The notes below the pieces were generated by a model, which saw nothing but the letters and a program-made list of their open reading frames with translations, ran no database searches and was not told the DNA's origin. The position numbers and the translations under genes were made by a program. From Hyphomicrobiales bacterium (GTDB taxonomy: Bacteria; Pseudomonadota; Alphaproteobacteria; Rhizobiales; Devosiaceae): 41,153 bases of DNA. The DNA is taken from contig JAMONS010000049.1 of NCBI GenBank assembly GCA_027065555.1, positions 1 to 41,153 on the forward strand, in the 5' to 3' direction. This document shows positions 26,519 through 39,857 of the stretch, one piece after another (position 1 is the first letter of the stretch; each line of letters opens with the position of its first letter).

Positions 26519-26616
26519 GAGGAAGAGCGCCTAGGAATGATGACATTGTAAAACAATGTCGGCGCTCTTCCTCTAGAAGTGCACCTGAGGACGCAGGGTT
26601 GCACTTCTATTCTGAT
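26519..26616. ncRNA. Structured element B (candidate RNA or palindromic repeat)
   Basis: Second copy of the architecture of element A. Stem 1 pairs 26519-26531 with 26561-26573 (13 bp), enclosing an unpaired AGGAAT at 26533-26538 and stem 2 (GACATTGT-AAA-ACAATGTC, 26542-26560). Stem 3 pairs TAGAAGTGCA with TGCACTTCTA (26574-26583, 26600-26609) around a loop with GAGGACGCA, followed by TTCT. It fills most of the 172-base gap between the Lrp gene and the end of acs, which converge here. It may help end transcription on either strand, but no U-tract follows on the acs side and only a weak one on the plus side. Confidence 0.5.
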
Positions 26617-28553
26617 TATTTTATCTGTTTTGAACCTGCAATAAGTTGGTCAATTATGCTTGGATCGGCTAGAGTTGAAATATCCCCTAAATTATCAAAA
26701 TCATTTTCAGCAATTTTGCGTAAAATCCTACGCATAATTTTTCCTGATCGTGTTTTTGGTAAATCTTGAGTAAAATGTATGTGATCTATCGTAGCGATTG
26801 GACCTATTTCTTTTCTGACCCATTGTTTGAGTTCTATTATTAATTCTTCACTTTTAATAGCACTAGACATCAATGAAACATAGGCATAAATACCTTGCCC
26901 CTTAATATCATGGGGATAACCTACAACTGCAGCTTCTGCTACTTTTTCATGCGCCACAAGAGCGCTTTCTATCTCGGCGGTTCCCAAACGATGACCTGCA
27001 ACATTTATCACATCATCAACACGACCAGTTATCCAATAATAATTATCTTCATCTCGTTTTGCGCCATCGGATGTAAAATACTTGCCCCTATAGGTTGTGA
27101 AATAAGTATCCACAAAGCGCTGGTGATCATTATAAATTGTTCGTGCTTGGGCTGGCCAAGATGAGAGGATACATAGATTGCCAGATGCCGCTCCCTCTAA
27201 TATTTCACCTTCATTATTAACCAGCTCAAGATCAATGCCAAAAAACGGGAAAGTCGCAGATCCCGGTTTGAGATCTGTTGCGCCGGGTAGTGGGGTGAGT
27301 AACATGCCCCCTGTTTCGGTTTGCCAATAATTATCAATTACACGGCATTTTCCATTACCAACTTTATGATGATACCATTCCCACGCTTGTGGGTTTATTG
27401 GCTCGCCGGCGGTTGCTAGAATTTTTAGTGAAGAGCGATCTGTTTTGCTTACATATTCATCACCCATTGCCATTAATGCTCGAATTGCGGTTGGGGCGGT
27501 GAAAAATTGATTGACCTTATATTTGTCGATTATTTGCCAAAATCTAGAAGCATCGGGATAGTTTGGTACGCCTTCATACATTATTGTTGTTGCGCCGTTT
27601 GCGAGGGGGGCATAAAGCGTAAATGAATGGCCAGTAATCCAGCCAAGATCTGCACCGCACCAATAAACATCACCCTTTTGATAGTCAAATATCACTTCAA
27701 ATGCGAGGCTTATATAGGTGAGATAACCGCCACTTGTATGCACGACACCTTTTGGTTTGCCAGTTGAGCCAGAAGTATAAAGCACAAAAAGTGGCTCTTC
27801 TGCATTCATGGGTTCGGCTTCGCATTGATCTGAAATATCTTTGTTAATTTCATGCCAAAAGATATCACGCCCTTCATGCCATTCTATCTCAGAACCAGTA
27901 TGTTTAACTACCAAAGTAGTTTTAAGAATTGGGGCTAGTTTTGCGGCTGCATCTACATTTTTCTTTAGTGGAATTTTTTTGCCACCACGCCGACCTTCAT
28001 CAGACGTTATCACAATGCTTGATTGGCAATCATTAATGCGACCAGCCAAACTATCAGGTGAAAATCCTGCAAAAACTACTGAGTGAACTGCGCCAATCCT
28101 AGCGCATGCGAGCATGGCAAAGGCCGCTTCTGGTATCATGGGCAAGTAAACAGTTACCCTATCACCCTTTTTTACACCAAGTTTTTTTAGGGTATTTGCC
28201 CATTTATTTACTTCCAAATGTAATTGGGCATAGGTGAAGATGCGCTGTTTTTCATTGGGCTCATCAGGTTCCCAAATTAGTGCAATTTGATCTGCTCTTT
28301 TGTCTAAATGTCTATCAATGCAACTTGTAGTTACGTTAAGAATACCGTCCTCGAACCACTTAATATCTACTGGATCAAAACTAGCGTTTTTTATTATTGT
28401 GGGTGCTTTAATCCAGTCAATACGCTTTGCCTGATCGCTCCAAAAACTATTTGGATCAGAAATAGATTGGGCGTACATTTTTTTATAAAGCGCACTATCT
28501 ATATAGGCGTTTTTTTTCCAAATATCTGGGACTTTGTAGAGTTTTTCACTCAC
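26616..28553 (-). CDS. acs: Acetyl-CoA synthetase (AMP-forming)
   Basis: This enzyme activates acetate with ATP and CoA to acetyl-CoA. The 645 residues contain the P-loop [15 protein letters not shown], the pocket segments GWITGHSF and [10 protein letters not shown], whose tryptophan is the residue that limits the pocket to acetate or propionate, and the C-terminal [16 protein letters not shown] with K605, the lysine acetylated in homologues. It is the last gene of the minus-strand ABC transporter operon, 12 bases after an ATPase gene. That position suggests that the transporter brings in the acid it activates. The structured element B follows its stop. Confidence 0.96.
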
Positions 28554-28565
28554 AGTTTTTACCTT

Positions 28566-29300
28566 TTAGATAGCTAAATATTCATGCATTAGTTCTTCAT
28601 TTTCTAGCATTTCTTTAGCGGTGCCAGTGAAAACAATTTCTCCTGTATCAAGAATTGCAGCTCTATCGCTAAGGCGTAAAGCAGCTACTGCGTTTTGCTC
28701 GACAATAATAGTTGTAATGCCGAGTTTTTTTATGGAGAGTAGGATTTTTTCAATTTCTTGTACGATGACAGGAGCAAGGCCCTCATAGGGTTCATCAAGT
28801 AATAATAATTTTACATCACGAGATAGGGCACGTGCTACGGCAAGCATTTGTTGCTCGCCTCCTGAAAGAGTTGTCCCCTCTTGTTTTCGTCTTTCGCCAA
28901 GGCGTGGAAAATGGTCATAAACTTGCTCAAGCGTCCAGCCATGACCGGGAGCGACTTGTGCTAGAGTGAGGTTTTCTTCAACCGTTAGCCCTTGAATAAT
29001 TCGCCTATCTTCTGGGACGAGTTGTACACCAGCAAGTGCTGCTTCATGGGCTTTCATTTCGTGTAAAGCCTGTCCATTAAGCCAAATTTCGCCAGATTTT
29101 ACTTCTGGGTCATCGGCTCTAGCTATGGAGCGTAAAGTTGAACTCTTCCCTGCACCATTACGCCCTAAAAGAGCTAGGATTTCTCCCTCTTTCACATCAA
29201 AAGAAACACCTTGAACAATGTAACTTTCACCGTAATATGCGTGCACATTATTAATTGAGAAAAACTTTTCTTCAGTTTGATTTTCATCTGTTTGGCTCAT
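28566..29300 (-). CDS. HAAT-family ABC transporter ATPase (LivF-like)
   Basis: A 244-residue ATPase of the branched-chain amino acid/amide/carboxylate importer family. It has Walker A GRNGAGKSSTLRSIA, signature LSGGEQQMLAVARAL, Walker B LLLLDEPYEGLAP and switch histidine region TTIIVEQN (Q-loop and H-loop equivalents as in LivF). It starts at the stop of the partner ATPase gene (one-base overlap) and is followed by acs after 12 bases. It pairs with the LivG-like subunit on the cytoplasmic face of the permeases. Despite the usual annotation, no evidence points to amino acids as substrate. Confidence 0.93.
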   Translation of the reverse strand: MSQTDENQTEEKFFSINNVHAYYGESYIVQGVSFDVKEGEILALLGRNGAGKSSTLRSIARADDPEVKSGEIWLNGQALHEMKAHEAALAGVQLVPEDRRIIQGLTVEENLTLAQVAPGHGWTLEQVYDHFPRLGERRKQEGTTLSGGEQQMLAVARALSRDVKLLLLDEPYEGLAPVIVQEIEKILLSIKKLGITTIIVEQNAVAALRLSDRAAILDTGEIVFTGTAKEMLENEELMHEYLAI

Positions 29301-30070
29301 TATGATGCTTCTCCCAGATAGGCTTTTTTAACGATTGTACTGGCACGCATTTCATCGGGTGTGCCTTCTGCAATAATACGTCCCCCAGCCAAAACAGAAA
29401 CCTTGTCGGCAAGAGAAAAAACCACGTGCATATCATGTTCAATAATAACGATTGTCATGCCTGTTGCCTTAATATCTTTAAGTAGATCAATCGTTGTGTT
29501 GGTATCGTGGCGTGACATGCCAGCGGTTGGCTCGTCCAATAGTAAAATGCGTGGTTGTTGAATGAGGCACATTGCAAGTTCTAACCGACGTTTATGACCA
29601 CGCGATAAAGACCCTGCATGTTCTTGCATTTTATCCTCTAATCCAAATTCTGTGAGGATTTTAACGGCTCTTTGATTTATTTCTTTTTCGTTTTCAAGTG
29701 ATTTTGAAAATTTTAACTTAAAAGCACCATCACGCTTTGCAAAAGCTGACACCATGACATTATCTATAACTGAAAGGTCGATAAATATTTCAGGAGTTTG
29801 AAAAACTCTTGCCACTCCCATTTGGTTAATTTCATGCGGTTTTTTGCCTGTTAAAACTTCACCATCAAGCACAACAGCACCACGTGTAGGGGGAAGCAAG
29901 CCAACTATTACGTTTAACAATGTTGATTTTCCAGCGCCGTTTGGTCCGATAATTGCGTGGGTTTTAGCTTCTTCAATCGATAGATCAACATCAGATAGAG
30001 CATGTAAACCACCAAATGTTTTATGCACATCTGCAACATGGAGAACGATGTTTTCACTAGCTTTAGCCAT
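29300..30070 (-). CDS. HAAT-family ABC transporter ATPase (LivG-like)
   Basis: A 256-residue ATPase, partner of the LivF-like subunit. It shows Walker A GPNGAGKSTLLNVIVG, Walker B ILLLDEPTAGMS and the switch segment VIIEHDMHVVFSLADKVSVL, typical of LivG. The signature is LSRGHKRRLELAM instead of the common LSGGQ, a moderate deviation. One-base overlaps join it to the genes on both sides. Residues VARVFQTPEIF form the Q-loop. Confidence 0.93.
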   Translation of the reverse strand: MAKASENIVLHVADVHKTFGGLHALSDVDLSIEEAKTHAIIGPNGAGKSTLLNVIVGLLPPTRGAVVLDGEVLTGKKPHEINQMGVARVFQTPEIFIDLSVIDNVMVSAFAKRDGAFKLKFSKSLENEKEINQRAVKILTEFGLEDKMQEHAGSLSRGHKRRLELAMCLIQQPRILLLDEPTAGMSRHDTNTTIDLLKDIKATGMTIVIIEHDMHVVFSLADKVSVLAGGRIIAEGTPDEMRASTIVKKAYLGEAS

Positions 30071-31212
30071 TAGCCTTCTCCTTTTTCACTATCAGATGAT
30101 TGTTTGGTTTTTTTGTCTTTGTTATTTTTAAACATTGTGCCTATTCGTCTTGCACCTTCCATAATGCCACCTGGTAAGAACACCACAACTAATACAAACA
30201 TTAGACCAAGCGTTAAGTGCCAACCCTCGCCAACAAATTTAGATGAAATTGTCACCACGATGTCTTCAAAACCATCGGGTAAGAAGGCAAAGAAACCATG
30301 CAACACGCTTTCATTCCATGCTGAAAAAATATTTTCGAAATATTTAATAAGCCAAGCACCAATGACTGGGCCAATCAATGTACCAACACCACCAAGAATA
30401 GTCATCAAGACCAATTCGCCAGAGGCAGTCCATTGCATACGCTCAGCGCCTGCAAGAGGATCGGTAATGGAAAGTAAGCCACCTGCAACACCTGCATAAA
30501 TTCCTGAAATAACAAACACGGTCAACATATAGGGTTTGGTATTAAAGCCTGTGTAATTCATGCGGTTTTCGTTAGACTTTATTCCTTTAAGCATCATTCC
30601 AAAAGGCGATGAGGTAATTTTTTGTGCAATAAAAAACCCAATTAATAAAATAATGGCGGTGAAATAAAAACCAGAATAACCACTCATCGATATCCCAAAA
30701 AGGTTAGAGGTTGGCAAAGAGCTACCACGTTCAATAAACATTAAATCTATTGCTCTTGGATCTTGCAAAGTAAGCTGCAACCCAGTTTCGCCATGTGTTA
30801 TTGGGCTTAAAACAGAATATGCCAATTTGTAACTCATCTGAGCAAAGGCAAGGGTTAGGATTGAGAAATAAATCCCAGAACGTCTAAGGGATATATAACC
30901 AATTGCTAAAGCAAATATGCCAGAGAATAATATAGCAAAGGATAGTGCCAAAACAGGGTTCATTGATAATAGTTTGAACGACCAGACCGCTGCGTACGAT
31001 CCGACTCCTAAAAAGGCAGCATGACCAAAACTTAAATATCCAGTTAGCCCAAACAACAAATTATAACCAACCGCAAGCAGGGCATAGATTGCAAATTTTT
31101 GTAATAGAGCTGGGTAAGAAGCGCCAAACGGGGTTAGCCAAATCGGCATGGTTAGAACTACTATTGCAAACAGCACAAATGTGATGGCATCTTTTTTTGG
31201 AATATTAAACAT
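30070..31212 (-). CDS. HAAT-family ABC transporter permease (LivM-like)
   Basis: A 380-residue inner-membrane permease with about ten hydrophobic helices. The LivM patterns are clear: [29 protein letters not shown] near the N-terminus, the coupling loop [24 protein letters not shown] near residue 195, and [16 protein letters not shown]. The C-terminus ends in a charged cytoplasmic tail rich in lysine and serine. It overlaps the LivG-like gene by one base and starts one base after the LivH-like stop. The insert around residues 145-175 between helices is longer than in LivM. Confidence 0.92.
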
Positions 31213-31213
31213 A

Positions 31214-32242
31214 TTAATTCTCCATCACGCCACGTTTGCCAAGTAAGCCGCGAGGGCGAACTAACAAAATAATAACAGCAATTAAATAGATAATGATTTG
31301 ATCAATGCCGGGAATAATGTCTTTAACTTCGGTCATTGAGGCAAGAGATTGCACTACTCCAAGCATAAAGCCAGCCAATACTGCACCCGGTAATGACCCC
31401 ATTCCACCAACCACAACAACGATGAATGAAAGAACCAAAAAGTCCATGCCAAGTGTATAATCTGGTGGTAGGATCGGAGTGTACATAACACCTGCCAAAC
31501 CTGCAACTACTGCGGCAATGCCAAACATGATGGTAAATCTTTTATCGATATTTATTCCTAGCATGGAAACAGTTTCACGATCGCTCATACCAGCGCGCAC
31601 CACCAAACCAAAAGTGGTAAATCTGAGGAAAGCAAATACCGCCGCGATTACTCCAAGTGAGAAGAATAAATATACAAGTCGCCATTTTGGATAGGTAATT
31701 ACGTTTTCTGCCATTCCTACCATTACTCCAAGATCAGCAGCCCCCATGAAAATCTGTGGTATGGGCTGAGGATTTGGGTTGGCGCCAAAAAATGCCTTGA
31801 CGATTTCTTGCAATACAATCGCCAAACCAAATGTTACAAGAATTTGCTCGGCATGCGGGCGTTTATAAAAATGCTTAATAATTCCTCGCTCCATAGCAAT
31901 GCCAATAAACAGCATAACAGGGATGGCCAGCAGTAAGGAGAATGGCACAGAATATTCAATTAAAACATTGCCAAAATCGCCAAACCATTGCTGGGCATAA
32001 GGCGTGCGAATTTCAAGAGGTGTTCCCCATGGGCTTAATTCGGTTTTGCTTAATACAATTTGCTCGAGGGTGATGATTTTTTTGAAAGTAACGGCGCAAA
32101 AAGCACCAAGCATAAATAATGCACCATGAGCAAAATTGACAACGCCCAAAGTGCCAAAAACGAGAGTTAGCCCTAATGCGATGAGTGCATAAGCCCCACC
32201 TTTATCTAGACCATTTAGGACTTGCAAAATTAACGCGTCCAT
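31214..32242 (-). CDS. HAAT-family ABC transporter permease (LivH-like)
   Basis: An inner-membrane permease of 342 residues from the ATG at 32242 ([20 protein letters not shown]). A second ATG four codons upstream (32254) is in frame but lacks a ribosome binding site, whereas GGGGGT precedes 32242. LivH patterns are [16 protein letters not shown], the coupling loop [20 protein letters not shown] and [22 protein letters not shown] polar insertion at about residues 55-90 lies between the second and third helices and is not in classical LivH. The terminator-like hairpin at 32276-32303 lies between this gene and the binding protein gene. Confidence 0.92.
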
Positions 32243-32275
32243 TTTTACCCCCATAGATTACAATTACAATTAAAA

Positions 32276-32303
32276 CTATCGGGACTATTTTTAGTCCCGA
32301 TAG
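32276..32303 (-). terminator. Hairpin between binding protein and permease genes (attenuator)
   Basis: CTATCGGGACTA and TAGTCCCGATAG form a perfect 12-bp stem with a four-base loop. On the minus strand it is followed by TTTTAATTG. It sits in the 85-base gap between the binding protein stop and the permease start. Such hairpins commonly stop part of the transcripts, so that the binding protein is made in excess of the membrane subunits. Confidence 0.6.
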
Positions 32304-32327
32304 ATATTATTTATTTTAGTATAGTTT

Positions 32328-33674
32328 TTAAGAAACTTCGTATGGTCCGAGCTCGCCACCAAAGATAGAAGCATCATACTCAACTTGAGCACGAGGAACT
32401 TCTTGCACAACTTCAAGCAAATCAAATTGTGAAGTTGGGTTAGCATTCCCTCTCACAACTAGAACGTCTTTGAAGCACTGGTGATCTTCAGCGCGATACT
32501 CAGTTGCGCCATTGCCCATGCCATCAAATTTATGACCCTCAAGCGCCTTAATAACTTCAGGCGGGTAAAGAGTGCCAGCACGCTCACATGCATCAGCATA
32601 AAGCAATGTTTGCACATAACATGTATGAGCAGCCATTGATGGCGGGAAGCCATATTCAGCACCAAATGATTTAACAAAGGCTTTTGAACCTTCGTCTTGT
32701 AATGACCAGTTCCAGTTGGCTGAACCAAGAATACCTTTAATATTATCACCAGCACCCTGCGCCATAAGGCGAGAGAATAATGGCACAACAATTTCAACAT
32801 TTTTACCATTAACCTGACGATCTTTAAGACCAAACTGAATGGATTGTGTCAATGAATTGACCATATCTTTGCCATAGTGGTTTAGAATAAGAACATCAGC
32901 ACCTGAATTTAGGAATGGTGTAATATACTGGGAAAAATCACCTTGCCCAACAGGCGTAAGTACGGTTTTTTCAGTTCTCCAACCAATAGCTTCGGTCGCA
33001 TCTTTAATCGCTCTTTGTTGCGTATAACCCCAGTTATAATCAGATGTTAAGTGATAAGCGACACGATCAGAGCCATATTCGTCCTTAAGCACAGGAGCGA
33101 GTGCAGCGCCAGTCATATAGGTATTAAAGAAATGTCTAAAGCCATAACGCTTTTTATCTTTACCTGTTGTGTCATCAGAGTGAGTGAGGCCTGCCATAAA
33201 GATTGTGCCCATTTCTTGGCAAAGAGCTTGCACAGCAACTGCCACACCAGAAGACGAACCACCAGTAATGATTAAAGCACCATCACGTTCAATCATACGA
33301 CGAGCGCTATCACGAGCGGCATCTGACTTGGTTTGAGTGTCACCAGTAACATAAGTAACCTTTTGACCAAGAATACCGTTACCTTTAAGATTAGACGGTT
33401 GCATAGTATTTAGCATGCCGCCATCGCCTTCACCATTTAGATGTTTAACGGCAAGCGTATAGGCACGCAATTCATCAGCACCCTCATCAGAATAGGGACC
33501 AGTTTGAGGTACATTAAAACCAAGAATAACATCACCGCCCTTAGGGTCGTTACGGAACTCTTGCGCCCATGCGCCTTTAGTAAAAATTGTAGGTGCTACA
33601 CCAGCAGTAATAATACCCGCTGTTGCTCCCTTTAGCACTTTACGACGATTAACGCCGTTTTTAATATTGCTCAT
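32328..33674 (-). CDS. HAAT-family periplasmic binding protein
   Basis: The substrate-binding component, first gene of the transporter-acs operon. The 448 residues begin with a twin-arginine signal, NRRKVLKGATAGIITAG, and a cleavage site after GAWAQ near residue 38. The mature domain is type I periplasmic binding fold (VILGFNVPQTGPYSDEGADE, VTYVTGDTQTKSDAARDSARRMIE, LIITGGSSSGVAVAVQ). AAGGAGG stands before the ATG. It does not look like UrtA or LivJ in its N-terminal ligand region. As the last gene of the operon is acs, a short carboxylate such as acetate, propionate or lactate is my inferred ligand. Confidence 0.92.
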   Translation of the reverse strand: MSNIKNGVNRRKVLKGATAGIITAGVAPTIFTKGAWAQEFRNDPKGGDVILGFNVPQTGPYSDEGADELRAYTLAVKHLNGEGDGGMLNTMQPSNLKGNGILGQKVTYVTGDTQTKSDAARDSARRMIERDGALIITGGSSSGVAVAVQALCQEMGTIFMAGLTHSDDTTGKDKKRYGFRHFFNTYMTGAALAPVLKDEYGSDRVAYHLTSDYNWGYTQQRAIKDATEAIGWRTEKTVLTPVGQGDFSQYITPFLNSGADVLILNHYGKDMVNSLTQSIQFGLKDRQVNGKNVEIVVPLFSRLMAQGAGDNIKGILGSANWNWSLQDEGSKAFVKSFGAEYGFPPSMAAHTCYVQTLLYADACERAGTLYPPEVIKALEGHKFDGMGNGATEYRAEDHQCFKDVLVVRGNANPTSQFDLLEVVQEVPRAQVEYDASIFGGELGPYEVS

Positions 33675-33853: not shown

Positions 33854-35428
33854 ATGCGTGCTCCAATAGGCTTTAGAATACGTAACCAACGGAAGATATT
33901 GAGTATTTCTCAGGTTAATCTAGCTAAGATAATTGGTATATCGCCAAGCTATCTTAACCTGATTGAGGCATCAAAGCGTGATGTGGGGGGGCTTTTACTG
34001 CAAAAAATTGCTAAAGCGCTAGAAATGGAGCTCCATCTTTTAAGCGGGGAGGGTGAGCAAAGGCTTATTTCAGATATTGAGGAATTGCTGGCTGATCCGA
34101 TTATTAAGGGATTTGATTTAAGCGCCAAAGAGATAAGAGAATTTGTTGCGCAATTTCCAGATTTGGCTGCTGTTTTAATTAGAATATATCGCTCTTATAT
34201 TGATGCAAATGCTAATATTGAAGCCTATGTTAATCGCCTAGAATCTGATCCGCTTTTTTCTGAATTATTGCACCAAGTGCTTAGTAAAATAACTGCAATC
34301 CACTCCAGTGCTGAAATTTTGCAAAATGTTGATGATCTTTCTGATGAGGAAGAAAAGAAATTTTTACGCTCGATTGGGCAATATTCAAATAATCTATCCG
34401 ATGTAGCACAAAATCTAATTGGGCATTTTGATCAAAGCACACAATTACGCAAAACTGTTACTCCAGTTCGTGAACTTGATGATTTAATTATTGCTGAGAA
34501 AAATTATTTTCCAGTTCTTGAGGGTAGGGCGCAGGTTTTACACAAAGAAATAGTTAAAGATGGAGTGATGAATGAAGCTGCCCTCCGTTTTAGTTTGCAG
34601 GAAAGGTTTGGCATAAAAGTTGAGGAGGCTTGGCTGCCAGATAATCATGAGAAGAATTTTCTTAGGCATCATTATTTTGATGAAGAAAATAAAACTATGT
34701 TCTTTCAAGGCTCAACGAGATCAGCAACTCGGCAATTTCAATTAGCAAGCCTTTATGGTAGCTTGGCAGAGGAAGATTTATTAAACGCTTTAGCAAATGA
34801 TAAAAGATTAACTTCTTATAGCGCTAAAAATTTGGCACTTAGATCTTTCTCTAATTATTTAGCTAGCGCCATAATATTTCCCTATGATCAGATTTTAGAT
34901 GACGCAAATAAAAGCAATTATGATATTGATTATTTAGTGCAAAAATATGCAACAAGTTTTGAGCAAGTGGCGCATCGTCTTGTGACCTTAAGAAAGAAAG
35001 ATAATTCAGGAATTGCTTTTGGATTTTTACGATCAGATCCTGCTGGACGACTAACCAAACATTTTCCGCTTGAGGGATTATTATTGCCTAGTTCAGGTCA
35101 TGCTTGTCCCTTGTGGGCAATATATAAGGCCTTTCAAACAGGCTCGCAAACTGTTCGTCAGATTGTAAGATTTTCAGATGGTTCTCGTTATTTATTTATT
35201 GCAAAAACTGTTACTAAGCGCCTAGCGACTTTTAAGGAACAACGGTTTTATTCATCTGTAATGTTGGCGTGCGAAATATCTGATGCTAGGGACACAATTT
35301 ATGCCCGTGGTTTAGATCTTGATGATGAGCAAACTGATATATTGGTTGGGGCAGCTTGCCGCTTATGTGTGCTAGATGATTGTGTTCATCGTCAAGAAGA
35401 AGCGCTTTATCCAAATCAAATGATGTAA
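33854..35428 (+). CDS. XRE-family short-chain acyl-CoA-type regulator (ScfR/RamB/PrpR-like)
   Basis: A 524-residue transcription factor of the COG3800 type. Residues 8-62 are an XRE helix-turn-helix (GFRIRNQRKILSISQVNLA, ISPSYLNLIEASKR). The middle resembles an ImmA/IrrE domain but lacks the HExxH zinc motif (LASLYGSLAEEDLL stands in its place), so it is not a peptidase. The C-terminal DUF2083-like domain has cysteines C418 and C502-x2-C505-x4-C510 (CRLCVLDDC). Relatives (RamB, PrpR) control acetate, glyoxylate-shunt and propionate genes and sense acyl-CoA; PrpR is reported to hold an Fe-S cluster. Divergent from the transporter-acs operon, it probably controls it. Confidence 0.9.
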   Translation: MRAPIGFRIRNQRKILSISQVNLAKIIGISPSYLNLIEASKRDVGGLLLQKIAKALEMELHLLSGEGEQRLISDIEELLADPIIKGFDLSAKEIREFVAQFPDLAAVLIRIYRSYIDANANIEAYVNRLESDPLFSELLHQVLSKITAIHSSAEILQNVDDLSDEEEKKFLRSIGQYSNNLSDVAQNLIGHFDQSTQLRKTVTPVRELDDLIIAEKNYFPVLEGRAQVLHKEIVKDGVMNEAALRFSLQERFGIKVEEAWLPDNHEKNFLRHHYFDEENKTMFFQGSTRSATRQFQLASLYGSLAEEDLLNALANDKRLTSYSAKNLALRSFSNYLASAIIFPYDQILDDANKSNYDIDYLVQKYATSFEQVAHRLVTLRKKDNSGIAFGFLRSDPAGRLTKHFPLEGLLLPSSGHACPLWAIYKAFQTGSQTVRQIVRFSDGSRYLFIAKTVTKRLATFKEQRFYSSVMLACEISDARDTIYARGLDLDDEQTDILVGAACRLCVLDDCVHRQEEALYPNQMM

Positions 35429-35494: not shown

Positions 35495-35911
35495 TTGAAC
35501 GTTGATGTTCTTATAGCAGAAGACGAGCCGGGGATATTAGAATCTTTGGAGTTTATTCTTAAGCGTGCTGGTTTTTCAGTTAGTTCTGTAACTGATGGCG
35601 AGGCGGCGCTTGAAACTATTAAGGTGCTAAAACCTAAAATGATGGTTTTAGATGTTATGCTACCTAAATTATCTGGTTTTGAAGTTCTAAAACGCTTGCG
35701 TGCTAATGAACAAAGCAGAAACTTACCAGTGTTAATTTTAACCGCTAAGGGGCAAAGGCAAGATAAAAAGCAGGCAGAAGAATTTGGTGCTAATGCTTTT
35801 ATTACAAAACCCTATGCCAATGATGATGTTGTTGATGGGGTTAGGCAATTATTGAATTTAGCTGGTTTTTATGATCAGCAAAATAAAGAGACTGATAATG
35901 AGCAATCGTAG
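35495..35911 (+). CDS. Single-domain response regulator
   Basis: A 138-residue receiver without an output domain. The phosphorylation site D53 (MMVLDVMLPK), acidic pocket E9-D10, T83 and K105 are all present, so it should be phosphorylated. The start is TTG at 35495, supported by AGGAGG five bases upstream; no suitable ATG is near. It lies 66 bases after the regulator gene and overlaps the small membrane protein gene by about 14 bases, with the SLC5-type histidine kinase next. The kinase downstream is the likely partner. With no DNA-binding part, it must act through another protein, possibly the XRE regulator upstream. Confidence 0.93.
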   Translation: MNVDVLIAEDEPGILESLEFILKRAGFSVSSVTDGEAALETIKVLKPKMMVLDVMLPKLSGFEVLKRLRANEQSRNLPVLILTAKGQRQDKKQAEEFGANAFITKPYANDDVVDGVRQLLNLAGFYDQQNKETDNEQS

Positions 35912-36158
35912 GAAAATAGAAAATGGTGCGTTGGCACTTCCTATCTTTGGTGCGATTTTAATTGTGCCACCATTGCTAAATGTTTTTAATGTAGAGGTGC
36001 TAATATTTGGTGCGCCACTTATAATTATTTATCTATTTTCGCTTTGGATATTATTGATCATTGCAACATTTTTCCTCTCAAGACACCTCCCCGATAACCC
36101 TACTTTAGAGCAGAATAATGATAGTTTTGAAGCTGATGATATTGAAGGCGAGAATTAA
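35898..36158 (+). CDS. Small two-TM membrane protein next to the SLC5 kinase
   Basis: An 86-residue protein (from the ATG at 35898, MSNRRKIENG) with a short basic N-terminus, two hydrophobic helices (about 11-28 and 33-58) and an acidic C-terminal tail. I do not recognise a named family with certainty. The pattern of two helices joined by a P-P-L-x-N and F-G-A-P resembles the small subunits (DUF485, DUF4212, DUF3311 type) encoded before SLC5 sodium:solute symporters. It overlaps the receiver gene by 14 bases and the kinase gene by one base (TAATG). The coupling suggests that it works with the kinase, whose N-terminal half is an SLC5 domain. Confidence 0.75.
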   Translation: MSNRRKIENGALALPIFGAILIVPPLLNVFNVEVLIFGAPLIIIYLFSLWILLIIATFFLSRHLPDNPTLEQNNDSFEADDIEGEN

Positions 36159-38866
36159 TGTTATCGGCTAATTTTGTAATATTTATAGCTGTTGCCTATA
36201 TATTCCTATTATTTATTTTGGCATATTTTAGTGATAGAAGCCAAAAAATGGGTAAGAAGAGTTTTCTTAATTCACCCCTAGTTTATACGCTTTCAATTTC
36301 GGTTTATTGTACTTCTTGGACATTTTATGGGGCGGTTGGCTCAGCTGCTCGTAATGGGTTAGAATTTTTAGCTATTTATCTTGGGCCAACCCTTGTTTTT
36401 GTTGGGTGGTGGTTTATTTTGCGAAAACTTGTTCGGGTAGGGCGAGAGCAACGAATAACTTCTATCGCGGATCTTTTATCGTCAAGATTTGGTAAATCAA
36501 ATAGGCTTGGTGTGCTGGTTACACTAATAGCGGTGATTGGCACAACTCCATATATTGCTCTGCAATTAAAAGCTATAACTAATTCTATTCAGGTGATTTC
36601 AGCTAGTGGTAGTTCAAGTGCAATATCTGGGTTTGGTGATGGAACATTAGCACTTGGTATTGCCGCTTTAATGGCGCTATTTACTATCTTTTTTGGAACA
36701 AGAAATGTCGATGCCAATGAGCAACATCATGGTGTTGTGGCAGCGATTGCGTTTGAAGCGATTGTTAAATTGGTGGCGTTTATTGCGGTTGGTATTTTTG
36801 TTGTATTTTTTGTTGGCGGGGGGGTTGGCAATATTTTTGCAAAAGCCAATGAAGCTGGAATAGATATATATAGGGCGGATAGTTTTGGCCCACGCTGGAT
36901 AGCCATATTATTTCTCTCGGCGGCGGCAATTCTATGCCTGCCACGCCAGTTTCAAATTACGGTTGTTGAAAATTCAAATGAGAGACATTTAAGAACTGCT
37001 GGTTGGGCGTTTCCTGCTTATTTGTTTTTGATGAGCTTGTTCACTATCCCGATAGCGCTTTATGGCTTAACAGCATTACCAGAAGGCTCTAACCCTGATA
37101 TGTTTGTGCTTACTTTGCCTTTAGCGGAGGGCAATACATTATTAGCATTATTTGCGTTTATTGGTGGGTTTTCTAGTGCCACATCAATGATTATTATCGC
37201 AACTATTGCGCTCTCAATTATGATTTCAAACCATATTGTGATGCCAATCGCACTTAGGAGTTCAGAAAATCTAGGTACAGCAGATGGGCGTGGAGTTACA
37301 AGATTGTTACTCACATCAAGGCGAGTTTCTATTATTTTTGTATTGTTTTTAGGGTTCTTATATTTTTGGTTCTCTGGCAATTCTGATGCTCTAGCTTCGA
37401 TGGGTTTAATTGCGTTTGCAGGGGTGGCGCAATTTTTACCTTCAATGATTGCGGCGCTTTATTGGCGAGAGGCCAGCGTTAACGGTGCAATTTGGGCAAC
37501 CTTTATCGGGTTTTTAGTTTGGGCATGGACGTTATTTTTGCCAAGTTTTGAAACCTCAAGCATAATGGTTGCTAATCTTATTTCTGAGGGGCCTTTTGGC
37601 TTAGAATTTTTACGTCCGCAAGCTCTATTTGGCATGAGTAATATGGATCCGCTCGTGCATTCAGTTTTTTGGTCTGTTTTGCTAAATGTTGTAACTTTAA
37701 TTGTGGTTTCTTTATTTACCAAACAATCAAGCTTAGAGAGAATTCAGGCAAATATGTTTGTTGATGTTTTTTCGCTTAAAAAAAGAGGTCAGGCAGAATT
37801 AGTTAGAGGTTCGGCTACTGCCAATGATTTAATGTTTGTGGCGCAAAGGGTTTTGGGGGGCAAAAGAGCCTATGAAATATTTGAAGGTTTTGCCAAACAA
37901 AGTGGTGTTAGGCGAGAGGAGTTAATCGTTACTTCTGAATTTATTTCACGACTTGAAAAAGAATTGGCAGGAACTATTGGGGCGGCATCAGCGCATGTGG
38001 TGCTTTCAAAAGTTTTATCTGGCGGTGAAGTATCGCTTGAAGAAGTGATGCAAATTGCCGATGAAACCCAACAAGTAATTGAATATTCGCAACGATTAGA
38101 GCAAACAACAAAAAAACTAAGAGCAACGGCAAAAGAGCTAAAAAAAGCGAATGAAAGCCTAACGCAATTAGATAAACAAAAAGATGATTTTCTATCAAAA
38201 GTTAGCCATGAGGTGAGAACGCCCATGACTTCTATTCGCTCGTTTTCAGAAATATTGCTGACCCATGATGATATAAATGACGAGCAGCGCAATAAGTTTG
38301 TTTTAACAATTAATCAGGAAAGTAAGCGATTGACTAATTTGCTTGATGAAATTCTTGATCTAAATGCGCTTGAAAAGGGCGAGAGAATTTGGGTGAATCG
38401 CTTGGTGAATGGTGAAGAAATATTGGAGAGGACTATTAATATTTGTAGTCCGATAGCTATGCAAAAAAATGTGCAGCTTAAGAGAGGGGAAAAAGCTAGC
38501 AATGATAATATTAATGCTGAGCCTGATCGATTGGCGCAGGTTTATATTAATATTATTACCAATGCGATTAAATATAATGATGCTAAAAACCCAATTATTA
38601 CTATATCATCTATGTCAAAAGCAGGGTTTTATATTGTAGATATAGCTGATAATGGTTCTGGAATTGCAAAACAAGATACTGAAATAATATTTGAAAAATT
38701 CTCTCGTGGGCGACGAACTAAGGGAGGAGACGATGGTGGTTTGGGGCTTGGCTTGGCAATTTCTCGTGAGATTATTGATAAAATGAGTGGTAGTTTGGAA
38801 TTAATAGAGACTAATAATAGTGGTGCATGTTTTCGTGTAAAAATACCACTAACAAAGGAGGAATAA
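36158..38866 (+). CDS. SLC5-STAC-histidine kinase (CrbS/CbrA-like)
   Basis: A 902-residue membrane sensor kinase. Residues 1 to about 510 are a sodium:solute symporter (SLC5) domain with about 13 helices (TSWTFYGAVGSAARNGLEFL, RSPQ-like LPRQFQITVVEN). Residues about 550-645 form a STAC domain (AQRVLGGKRAYEIFEGF, ELAGTIGAASAHVVLSKV). A coiled coil precedes the HisKA domain with H684 in SKVSHEVRTPMTS and an ATPase domain with NIITNAIKYN, DNGSGI and GLGLGLAISREI. No PAS and no receiver domain are seen, unlike many CrbS proteins. In Vibrio and Pseudomonas, CrbS-CrbR controls acs. acuI follows after four bases. Confidence 0.94.
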   Translation: MLSANFVIFIAVAYIFLLFILAYFSDRSQKMGKKSFLNSPLVYTLSISVYCTSWTFYGAVGSAARNGLEFLAIYLGPTLVFVGWWFILRKLVRVGREQRITSIADLLSSRFGKSNRLGVLVTLIAVIGTTPYIALQLKAITNSIQVISASGSSSAISGFGDGTLALGIAALMALFTIFFGTRNVDANEQHHGVVAAIAFEAIVKLVAFIAVGIFVVFFVGGGVGNIFAKANEAGIDIYRADSFGPRWIAILFLSAAAILCLPRQFQITVVENSNERHLRTAGWAFPAYLFLMSLFTIPIALYGLTALPEGSNPDMFVLTLPLAEGNTLLALFAFIGGFSSATSMIIIATIALSIMISNHIVMPIALRSSENLGTADGRGVTRLLLTSRRVSIIFVLFLGFLYFWFSGNSDALASMGLIAFAGVAQFLPSMIAALYWREASVNGAIWATFIGFLVWAWTLFLPSFETSSIMVANLISEGPFGLEFLRPQALFGMSNMDPLVHSVFWSVLLNVVTLIVVSLFTKQSSLERIQANMFVDVFSLKKRGQAELVRGSATANDLMFVAQRVLGGKRAYEIFEGFAKQSGVRREELIVTSEFISRLEKELAGTIGAASAHVVLSKVLSGGEVSLEEVMQIADETQQVIEYSQRLEQTTKKLRATAKELKKANESLTQLDKQKDDFLSKVSHEVRTPMTSIRSFSEILLTHDDINDEQRNKFVLTINQESKRLTNLLDEILDLNALEKGERIWVNRLVNGEEILERTINICSPIAMQKNVQLKRGEKASNDNINAEPDRLAQVYINIITNAIKYNDAKNPIITISSMSKAGFYIVDIADNGSGIAKQDTEIIFEKFSRGRRTKGGDDGGLGLGLAISREIIDKMSGSLELIETNNSGACFRVKIPLTKEE

Positions 38867-38870
38867 GTTT

Positions 38871-39857
38871 ATGAAATTTTCTGCATTGCTAAGTGAAAAA
38901 AATGAAGAGGGTAGGGTTACCTCATCAATTAAAATGCTTGATGAGAGCGATTTGCCTAAGGGAAATGTTTTAGTAAAAGTTGAATGGGCGGGACTTAATT
39001 ATAAAGATGGTCTTTGTTTAAATGGCGCTGGTGGATTAGTGCGCAATTATCCGCATGTGGCAGGGATTGATTTTTCAGGGGTGGTGCAATCAAGTTCTGA
39101 TGAGCGTTATAAAAAAGGCGATAAGGTAATTCTTACTGGTTGGCGAGTTGGTGAAAATCGCTTTGGCGGATATGCTGAATTGGCAAGAGTTGAGGGTGAT
39201 TATTTAGTTCCATTACCTAAGAGCATGTCAACACGTGATGCTATGGTAATTGGTACGGCTGGGCTTACGGCGCAATTAGCTATTTCTCGCCTAAAAGAAA
39301 ATGGGCTTGAACCCACGAGCGGTGAAATATTAGTGACCGGTGCGGGGGGCGGAGTTGGCTCTATTGCTACATTATTATTGGCTAATGAAAATTACGAAGT
39401 GGTTGGCGTTACTGGCAGAGAAGAAACTAAAAAGCTACTAATGGAGCTTGGCGCAAGCACTATTATGGATCGCTCAGAATTAGCTGAGTCCAGCAAGCGA
39501 GTGCTTGAAAGCGAAAGATGGGCAGGGGTGATTGATAGTGCCGGTGGGGAGAGTTTGGGCAATATCCTCAAACAACTTAAATCTGGTGCTGGTGTTGCGC
39601 TAATTGGATTAGCAGGCGGTGCGACATGGGACGCTTCGGTCATTCCATTTATCATTCGGGGCGTAAATTTATATGGTATTGATAGTGTTATGGCGCCGTT
39701 TGAAAAACGCCAAAAAGCATGGAAAAATCTAGCGCAAAATTTTGACCAAGAAAAATATGCACCCCTAGTTAGCGAGGTGACGCTTGAGCAATTACCCCAA
39801 TATGGAAGTCGCATATTAAAGGGCGAAATTATGGGTCGAGTAATAGTGCAGCCTTAA
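38871..39857 (+). CDS. acuI: Acryloyl-CoA reductase (NADPH), AcuI/YhdH type
   Basis: A 328-residue medium-chain reductase without zinc. The N-terminal GroES-like part has WAGLNYKDGLCLNGAGG and PHVAGIDFSGVV, and the Rossmann part has the NADPH motif VTGAGGGVGSIATLLL near residue 160 and VVGVTGREETKKLL. AcuI reduces acryloyl-CoA to propionyl-CoA in 3-hydroxypropionate and DMSP use and in acrylate detoxification. It starts four bases after the kinase stop with GGAGG upstream, so it belongs to the sensor operon. That ties the locus to C2-C3 acid metabolism. A general quinone oxidoreductase is a weaker alternative. Confidence 0.9.
   Translation: MKFSALLSEKNEEGRVTSSIKMLDESDLPKGNVLVKVEWAGLNYKDGLCLNGAGGLVRNYPHVAGIDFSGVVQSSSDERYKKGDKVILTGWRVGENRFGGYAELARVEGDYLVPLPKSMSTRDAMVIGTAGLTAQLAISRLKENGLEPTSGEILVTGAGGGVGSIATLLLANENYEVVGVTGREETKKLLMELGASTIMDRSELAESSKRVLESERWAGVIDSAGGESLGNILKQLKSGAGVALIGLAGGATWDASVIPFIIRGVNLYGIDSVMAPFEKRQKAWKNLAQNFDQEKYAPLVSEVTLEQLPQYGSRILKGEIMGRVIVQP

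Follow-up and report, generated by a model that had tools for sequence, protein, structure and literature searches.

A 41,153-nucleotide stretch of DNA from a Hyphomicrobiales bacterium (GenBank assembly GCA_027065555.1, contig JAMONS010000049.1, positions 1 to 41,153 of the forward strand; the whole stretch is referred to as the window) was found to encode a signalling system made of four neighbouring genes: an ScfR-type XRE transcription factor, a lone receiver (REC), a small two-helix membrane protein and a histidine kinase with SLC5 and STAC domains. The regulator carries an insert homologous to the HisKA (DHp) part of the SLC5 kinase, and in a survey of ScfR proteins this insert occurred only in those whose genes lie near components of such a system. 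The signal probably runs from the kinase to the lone receiver and from the receiver to the DHp-like domain of the ScfR regulator, with the small protein, a distant relative of the CbrX peptide of Pseudomonas, acting as a subunit on the kinase.

Domains and gene order of the system

The gene for the ScfR-type transcription factor (33854..35428, forward strand, 524 aa) lies upstream of the receiver gene (35495..35911, forward strand, 138 aa), which has a TTG start preceded by aaaaggagggg. The receiver gene overlaps by 14 nt the gene of the two-transmembrane (two-TM) hairpin protein, a likely CbrX-like accessory subunit (35898..36158, forward strand, 86 aa), and the latter overlaps by 1 nt (TAATG) the gene of the SLC5-STAC-HisKA-HATPase histidine kinase (36158..38866, forward strand, 902 aa). 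An earlier note on this DNA had described positions 35495-38866 as a set of receiver, small two-helix protein and kinase, with the small protein coupled to both neighbours by overlaps, and the coordinates, domains and overlaps were all upheld. Its description of the kinase, with SLC5, STAC, HisKA and ATPase parts and with neither PAS nor receiver, also agreed with the analysis: Pfam matched HisKA (E 7e-15) and HATPase_c (E 1e-22) and detected no PAS or receiver in the 902 residues at E<=1. The Pfam SSF model gave no match on the kinase, and residues 5-578 matched the SLC5-STAC chain of CbrA (10ed_A, E 9e-77); with SLC5 and STAC joined to HisKA-HATPase, the protein is an SLC5/STAC histidine kinase. 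The receiver matched Response_reg in Pfam (E 9e-28), with no output domain in its 138 residues, and D10, D53, T83 and K105 were invariant in 19 sequences, as expected from the note, which had credited it with all phosphorylation residues. By its D-D-T-K residues and missing output domain it is a single-domain response regulator.

The regulator matched the Pfam ScfRs profile (PF09856) with E 4e-37 and 128 bits (cut-off 24), together with HTH_3 (E 2e-8) and an IrrE-like profile (E 7e-10). Its parts are a helix-turn-helix (HTH) domain (residues 9-60), a DHp-like hairpin (about 125-197) and a PrpR-like coenzyme A (CoA)/[4Fe-4S] module (about 202-524). The structure model had a mean confidence score (pLDDT) of 85, and its residues 202-523 matched PrpR of M. 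tuberculosis (6cyj_A) with Z 36.5, a root-mean-square deviation of 2.4 over 314 residues and 28% identity. PrpR binds CoA and a [4Fe-4S] cluster through a C-X2-C-X4-C motif and Cys363 (PMC6765138; this and all other published findings are given here as in excerpts of the papers cited). The regulator keeps the motif as C502, C505 and C510 plus a further cysteine, C418, and all four were invariant in 18 regulator sequences, which makes them candidate [4Fe-4S] ligands; from the order of the motifs, our guess would be that C418 is equivalent to Cys363. The regulator is an ScfR-type CoA-ester/[4Fe-4S] transcription factor.

Among 20 relatives of the window's genome that were taken with long flanks, 19 kept the order ScfR-REC-small protein-kinase; no ScfR was found in the other (L061). 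A search with the kinase alignment gave 594 loci, and the best 80 of these form a wider set, the named loci. A receiver match above 100 bits was present in 77 of them, upstream of the kinase in 32 and downstream in 45, and was missing in L074, L103 and L106; in the last two the contig stops less than 1 kb past the kinase. The receiver open reading frames (ORFs) were sized from stop to stop (56/77 with at most 170 codons, 17 with 171-260 and 4 longer), and at such sizes lone status is not shown for each of the 77. An ScfR match was contained in 22 of the 80 loci. L086 has only a fragment of an ScfR. In L074, where no receiver was found, the ScfR is without the insert and lies about 0.7 kb from an isocitrate-lyase-family gene.

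The DHp-like insert and the output of the receiver

In a small database, tblastn with the regulator also matched the SLC5 kinase, in its HisKA part, in 28/30 loci; the DHp-like insert of the regulator, about 65-70 residues long, accounts for this. The HisKA-type segment, with His140, is encoded at 34220..34438 (forward strand). A profile built from a 19-row alignment, in which the window's own segment is one row, scored 103 bits on it in its own genome. When this profile was run over 12 genomes picked for having the system, in 12/12 the regulator was the top match and was followed by the cognate SLC5 kinase (53-69 bits), and every other kinase scored at most 37 bits. Pfam HisKA matched 12/19 insert segments (best E 3e-11). 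The insert was modelled as a helical hairpin (helices 133-158 and 164-198) with a pLDDT of about 67-85 over most of its length and below 50 at 193-201. No histidine-kinase DHp structure was among the 50 regulator structure matches listed, which is uninformative either way as HTH, PrpR and IrrE-like chains fill the list.

Residues were counted in 48 distinct segments, one duplicate of 49 having been dropped. The histidine was kept in 45/48 (47/50 regulators) and H+4 was S, T or N in 46/48, while an acid at H+1 occurred in 6/48 and proline at H+5 in 0/48; all 80 named kinases had H, E, T and P at H, H+1, H+4 and H+5. In HisKA proteins the H+1 acid serves the kinase activity and T/N at H+4 the phosphatase activity (PMC3510030). 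The insert thus has the marks of a HisKA/DHp domain (a histidine in an H-box and a helical hairpin) and lacks those of an active kinase, the H+1 acid in most segments and the H+5 proline in all. Because the histidine and H+4 are kept and H+1 and H+5 are mostly or always lost, the sequence suggests that the insert is a kinase-dead copy of a DHp domain, perhaps still able to meet the receiver.

The distribution of the insert was determined in ScfRs collected over 115 genomes of the class with the Pfam profile, a collection that is unbiased for the insert because the profile alone defined it. The survey gave 39 matches, and a partial ScfR (G315, L200) was set aside. The insert was present in 15 of the 38 classifiable ScfRs and missing in 23. 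All 15 insert-bearing ScfRs were encoded near parts of such a system; in 13 the receiver gene lay within about 3.6 kb and in G293 at about 7.5 kb. In G258 (L209) an insert-bearing ScfR is paired with a receiver, and an SLC5 kinase with a receiver of its own is found on another contig. The 23 insert-free loci were inspected over up to 16.5 kb (19 at full or nearly full length and 4, at contig ends, over 3.5-10.7 kb), and none contained a lone receiver, the small protein or an SLC5 kinase; 43-bit receiver matches lay inside large ORFs in two and other kinases occurred in two. The window's own genome encodes a second ScfR (L295), which is one of these 23. A receiver within 8 kb was thus seen in 14/15 loci with the insert and 0/23 without (Fisher 1.6e-9, a guide only as the genomes are related), and with a limit of 3.6 kb in 13/15 (Fisher 1.9e-8, to be read with the same reserve). 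The earlier note had held that the receiver acts by protein contact and had named the XRE regulator as a candidate partner; such a contact is favoured by the occurrence of the regulator's DHp-like domain, which the note had overlooked, only near such systems.

The following course of events is proposed. The kinase would sense a small carbon compound, presumably a short-chain acid, with the CbrX-like two-helix subunit packed on its SLC5 domain as homology to CbrXA suggests. Movements of SLC5 and STAC would set autophosphorylation, and the kinase would phosphorylate the lone receiver, in keeping with the intact residues and the gene order. The receiver would then recognise the kinase-dead DHp copy that the regulator carries after its HTH and ahead of its CoA/[4Fe-4S] module. 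Binding of the phosphorylated receiver may alter the regulator's state; phosphotransfer to His140, or dephosphorylation of the receiver by the domain, may accompany it. Targets of the regulator may be the divergent ABC-transporter/acs genes and its own operon, and it would combine the extracellular signal with intracellular acyl-CoA. The proposal explains, in a form that can be tested, how a receiver that lacks an output domain gets its signal to a gene regulator, and it would place one transcription factor at the junction of an outside signal (through the SLC5 kinase) and an inside signal (acyl-CoA).

Several observations speak against this course. The window's own insert had no Pfam HisKA match, and its assignment rests on the orthologues and the tblastn match to the kinase. 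The small protein and the kinase adjoin the ScfR in G327 with no receiver in 13 kb, and in G313 the receiver and kinase beside the ScfR belong to another type. The histidine was missing in 3/48 segments. The similarity of insert and kinase was 0.356 for pairs from the same operon and 0.336 for mismatched pairs (28/38 positive), a slight excess only. Finally, in 44 of the 80 named loci the receiver lay downstream and an ScfR was absent.

A stronger form of the proposed course is a true phosphorelay, in which the phosphorylated receiver passes its phosphate to His140 and the regulator is a phosphohistidine transcription factor. The conserved histidine and the modelled hairpin suit it, as does the fact that the mostly lost H+1 acid is needed for kinase and not phosphatase activity (PMC3510030). 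The three segments without the histidine do not suit it, nor does the glutamate found in its place in DHp segments of other proteins beside the same receiver (see below), which fits docking better than transfer, and we regard this stronger form as rather doubtful. Slightly less probable still is that the regulator took the segment from the kinase as a structural or dimerisation spacer, the receiver making no contact with it and acting elsewhere or solely as a phosphate sink. The losses at H+1 and H+5, the segments without histidine, the weak same-operon similarity and the loci with a downstream receiver and no ScfR speak for a spacer. The retention of the histidine and of S/T/N at H+4 speaks against it. 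A spacer also need not track the receiver, yet the segment is absent from 23/23 ScfRs away from the system and is retained in the L209 pair, which has no adjoining kinase.

Docking of the receiver on the DHp-like domain remained the preferred reading, and loci of other lineages bear on it. An ORF with a DHp-like match (E 4e-9 to 0.2), mostly 600-970 codons long, lay near the receiver in 34 of the 80 named loci; L095:11158-13329 is an example beside a lone receiver. Seven of these ORFs were scanned with Pfam, and a DEDDh 3'-5' exonuclease domain was present in 7/7 and PAS above its cut-off in 3/7. In the exonuclease-linked DHp, glutamate replaced the histidine in 11 of the 13 segments listed (judged by eye). 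The SLC5 operon of G313, on a different contig from its ScfR, also has an ORF with a DHp-like match in the position of the exonuclease. That a degenerate DHp recurs in another type of effector beside this receiver supports docking as a general route. It is conceivable, and put forward tentatively, that this is a new output route for lone receivers, in which effectors capture a kinase-dead DHp copy of their own sensor kinase and so become readable by the receiver, the effector being ScfR in Alphaproteobacteria and a membrane pseudokinase-DEDDh exonuclease beside the same receiver in many Beta/Gammaproteobacteria.

Other ORFs beside receivers were also recorded. A fusion of DEDDh exonuclease, CBS and DUF294 domains (L085:4808-7108) lies upstream of a lone receiver, in the place held by ScfR in other Alphaproteobacteria. 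An orphan of about 217 residues beside a receiver (L071:10846-11499, reverse strand) had as its sole match a HisKA-like one with E 2e-5, below the Pfam cut-off.

The small two-helix protein

The family of the small protein was found directly upstream of the PAS-less SLC5 kinase in 79 of the 80 named loci, and for this reason the protein is no chance ORF; 5/79 matches scored below 20 bits. It cannot be scored in the remaining locus (L074), whose contig begins at the kinase. Among 14 longer SLC5 kinases (1,171-1,405 residues), 10 of which carry a receiver within the same ORF, none had the small protein at E<=0.01, the two matches seen (E 0.2 and 1.0) being both on the opposite strand. Conservation of the small protein with its kinases, on which the earlier note had made its view depend, was therefore confirmed for this subclass (79/80 vs 0/14).

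The model showed helices at residues 4-21 and 41-63 with a pLDDT of 74, and P25 and W50 were invariant in 52 family members. As a two-helix hairpin encoded directly upstream of an SLC5-STAC kinase gene and overlapping it, the protein is CbrX-like. The top PDB match of the family profile was the CbrX peptide (10ed_X) with E 0.51, which proves nothing by itself. Comparison of the 52-member alignment with CbrX by hhalign gave 95.6% probability and E 1.1e-8 (reversed controls 1.2-1.6%), and comparison with DUF3311 gave 77% and E 2e-5 over 29 columns in the second helix (reversed control 0.5%). The same alignment gave 0.3% with DUF4212, which is the level of the reversed controls (0.3-0.4%). On this basis the small protein is a distant relative of CbrX. 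The earlier note had likened it to the small partners of SLC5 symporters, and this stood in part: the relation is to CbrX, a kinase partner, and more weakly to DUF3311, and did not extend to DUF4212.

Family searches gave little more. The window's 86-aa protein had no Pfam match, and Pfam with NCBIfam gave nothing usable on the small protein. In a Pfam scan of the 52 members, DUF3311 and DUF6232 were the commonest matches with 5/52 each (best DUF3311 E 5e-4). Membership of DUF3311 (PF11755) was rejected, as 0/61 genomes passed the curated cut-off, with a distant relation possible; a relation to DUF4212 (PF13937) was also rejected, with no match in the window's own genome. DUF485 was absent from the Pfam matches of the window's protein and from the 25 of 36 families listed for the 52 members, and no DUF485 profile comparison was made. 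Relatives of CbrX matched in 18/200 genomes, and an SLC5 kinase adjoined in 17/18 of these loci. The CbrX-like ORFs beside SLC5 kinases (L222-L238) comprised several families beyond one that is 92-98% identical to the Pseudomonas sequence.

In a cryo-electron microscopy structure CbrX is bound at TM3 and TM8 of the CbrA SLC5 domain (PMC13022988), and because of the homology to CbrX the window's protein is likely an accessory subunit of its SLC5 kinase. Some results pull the other way. A narrow alignment of 26 near relatives gave 73% (E 3e-5) with CbrX, and also 25% with DUF3311 and 0.1% with DUF4212; a PDB search with it gave no match. CbrX and DUF3311 did not match each other in hhalign (1%). 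Mutual information between the small protein and SLC5, from 109 non-redundant pairs with an effective number of 58, placed the strongest pairs in scattered positions; the top pairs reuse few columns of the small protein, a pattern expected from a lineage split, and no interpretable interface was obtained. P. putida lacking CbrX is able to grow on histidine (PMC13022988), and CbrX acts through translational coupling, an altered CbrX sequence still supporting translation of CbrA (PMC6591292). That the protein is a mere translational coupler with no role in a complex, as first proposed for CbrX, would accord with these last two findings and with the overlapping genes, but is improbable, since the invariance of P25 and W50 exceeds what a merely translated ORF needs and CbrX remains on CbrA in the cryo-electron microscopy structure (PMC13022988).

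Gene context and comparison with known systems

Genes of a UrtABCDE-like ABC transporter (28566..33674, reverse strand) are divergent from the regulator gene and are conserved beside ScfR-type relatives; three of the five were scanned and all fell below the urea cut-offs. The divergent cluster ends with an acetate-CoA ligase gene (acs; 26616..28553, reverse strand; TIGR02188 E 4e-292, above cut-off). A member of the acrylyl-CoA reductase family (YhdH/AcuI-like; 38871..39857, forward strand) begins 4 nt past the kinase gene, with TIGR02823 at E 1e-122 and above cut-off and the AcuI equivalog model below its cut-off. Among the 20 long-flank relatives, 18 had the transporter binding-protein gene (at least 68% identity). 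So had 19 of the 80 named loci, each of which belongs to the 22 with an ScfR match. Instead, 11 of the 80 named loci have an acs-like gene whose end lies just before the small gene. From this gene context, a short-chain acid would be our guess for the signal.

The earlier note had considered the wiring unusual, a judgement that was not borne out, as the arrangement is common and a small subunit of an SLC5 kinase has a solved precedent in CbrXA (PMC13022988). Among the titles and abstract openings listed from the open-licence literature, no description of a DHp insert in ScfR or of the wiring of SLC5/STAC kinase, lone receiver and ScfR was found. The nearest statement is that Pden_1785, an ScfR homologue of Paracoccus, clusters with two-component genes (PMC10370305).

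The ScfRs RamB, PccR and MccR/PrpR resemble the present regulator in the HTH, the PrpR-like CoA/[4Fe-4S] module and the cysteine motif (PMC6765138, PMC10370305), whereas ScfRs away from such a system differ from it in having no DHp-like insert (23/23). The DUF3311 proteins of MctP-type SLC5 symporters (PMC9100948) show the weak profile relation in the second helix, but their partner is a symporter and not a kinase, and the small protein falls below membership. CrbS/R and RpuS/R likewise have SLC5-STAC histidine kinases, and CrbS/R controls acs (PMC5715377, PMC9100948), a gene that the present locus has in its divergent cluster; in contrast, these systems use LuxR-type regulators, and CrbS is a hybrid kinase (PMC5715377, PMC9100948).

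Also close is CbrXA-CbrB of Pseudomonas, which has an SLC5-STAC kinase and, upstream and overlapping, the gene of a two-helix membrane peptide (PMC13022988, PMC6591292). The SLC5-STAC parts are homologous over kinase residues 5-578 and the small proteins are related by profile. CbrA has PAS, and CbrB has REC and output domains (PMC13022988, PMC6591292), whereas the present system has no PAS, a lone receiver and an ScfR regulator. The CbrX-type subunit, discussed for Pseudomonas and its family (PMC13022988, PMC6591292), is hereby extended to a broad class of SLC5 kinases.

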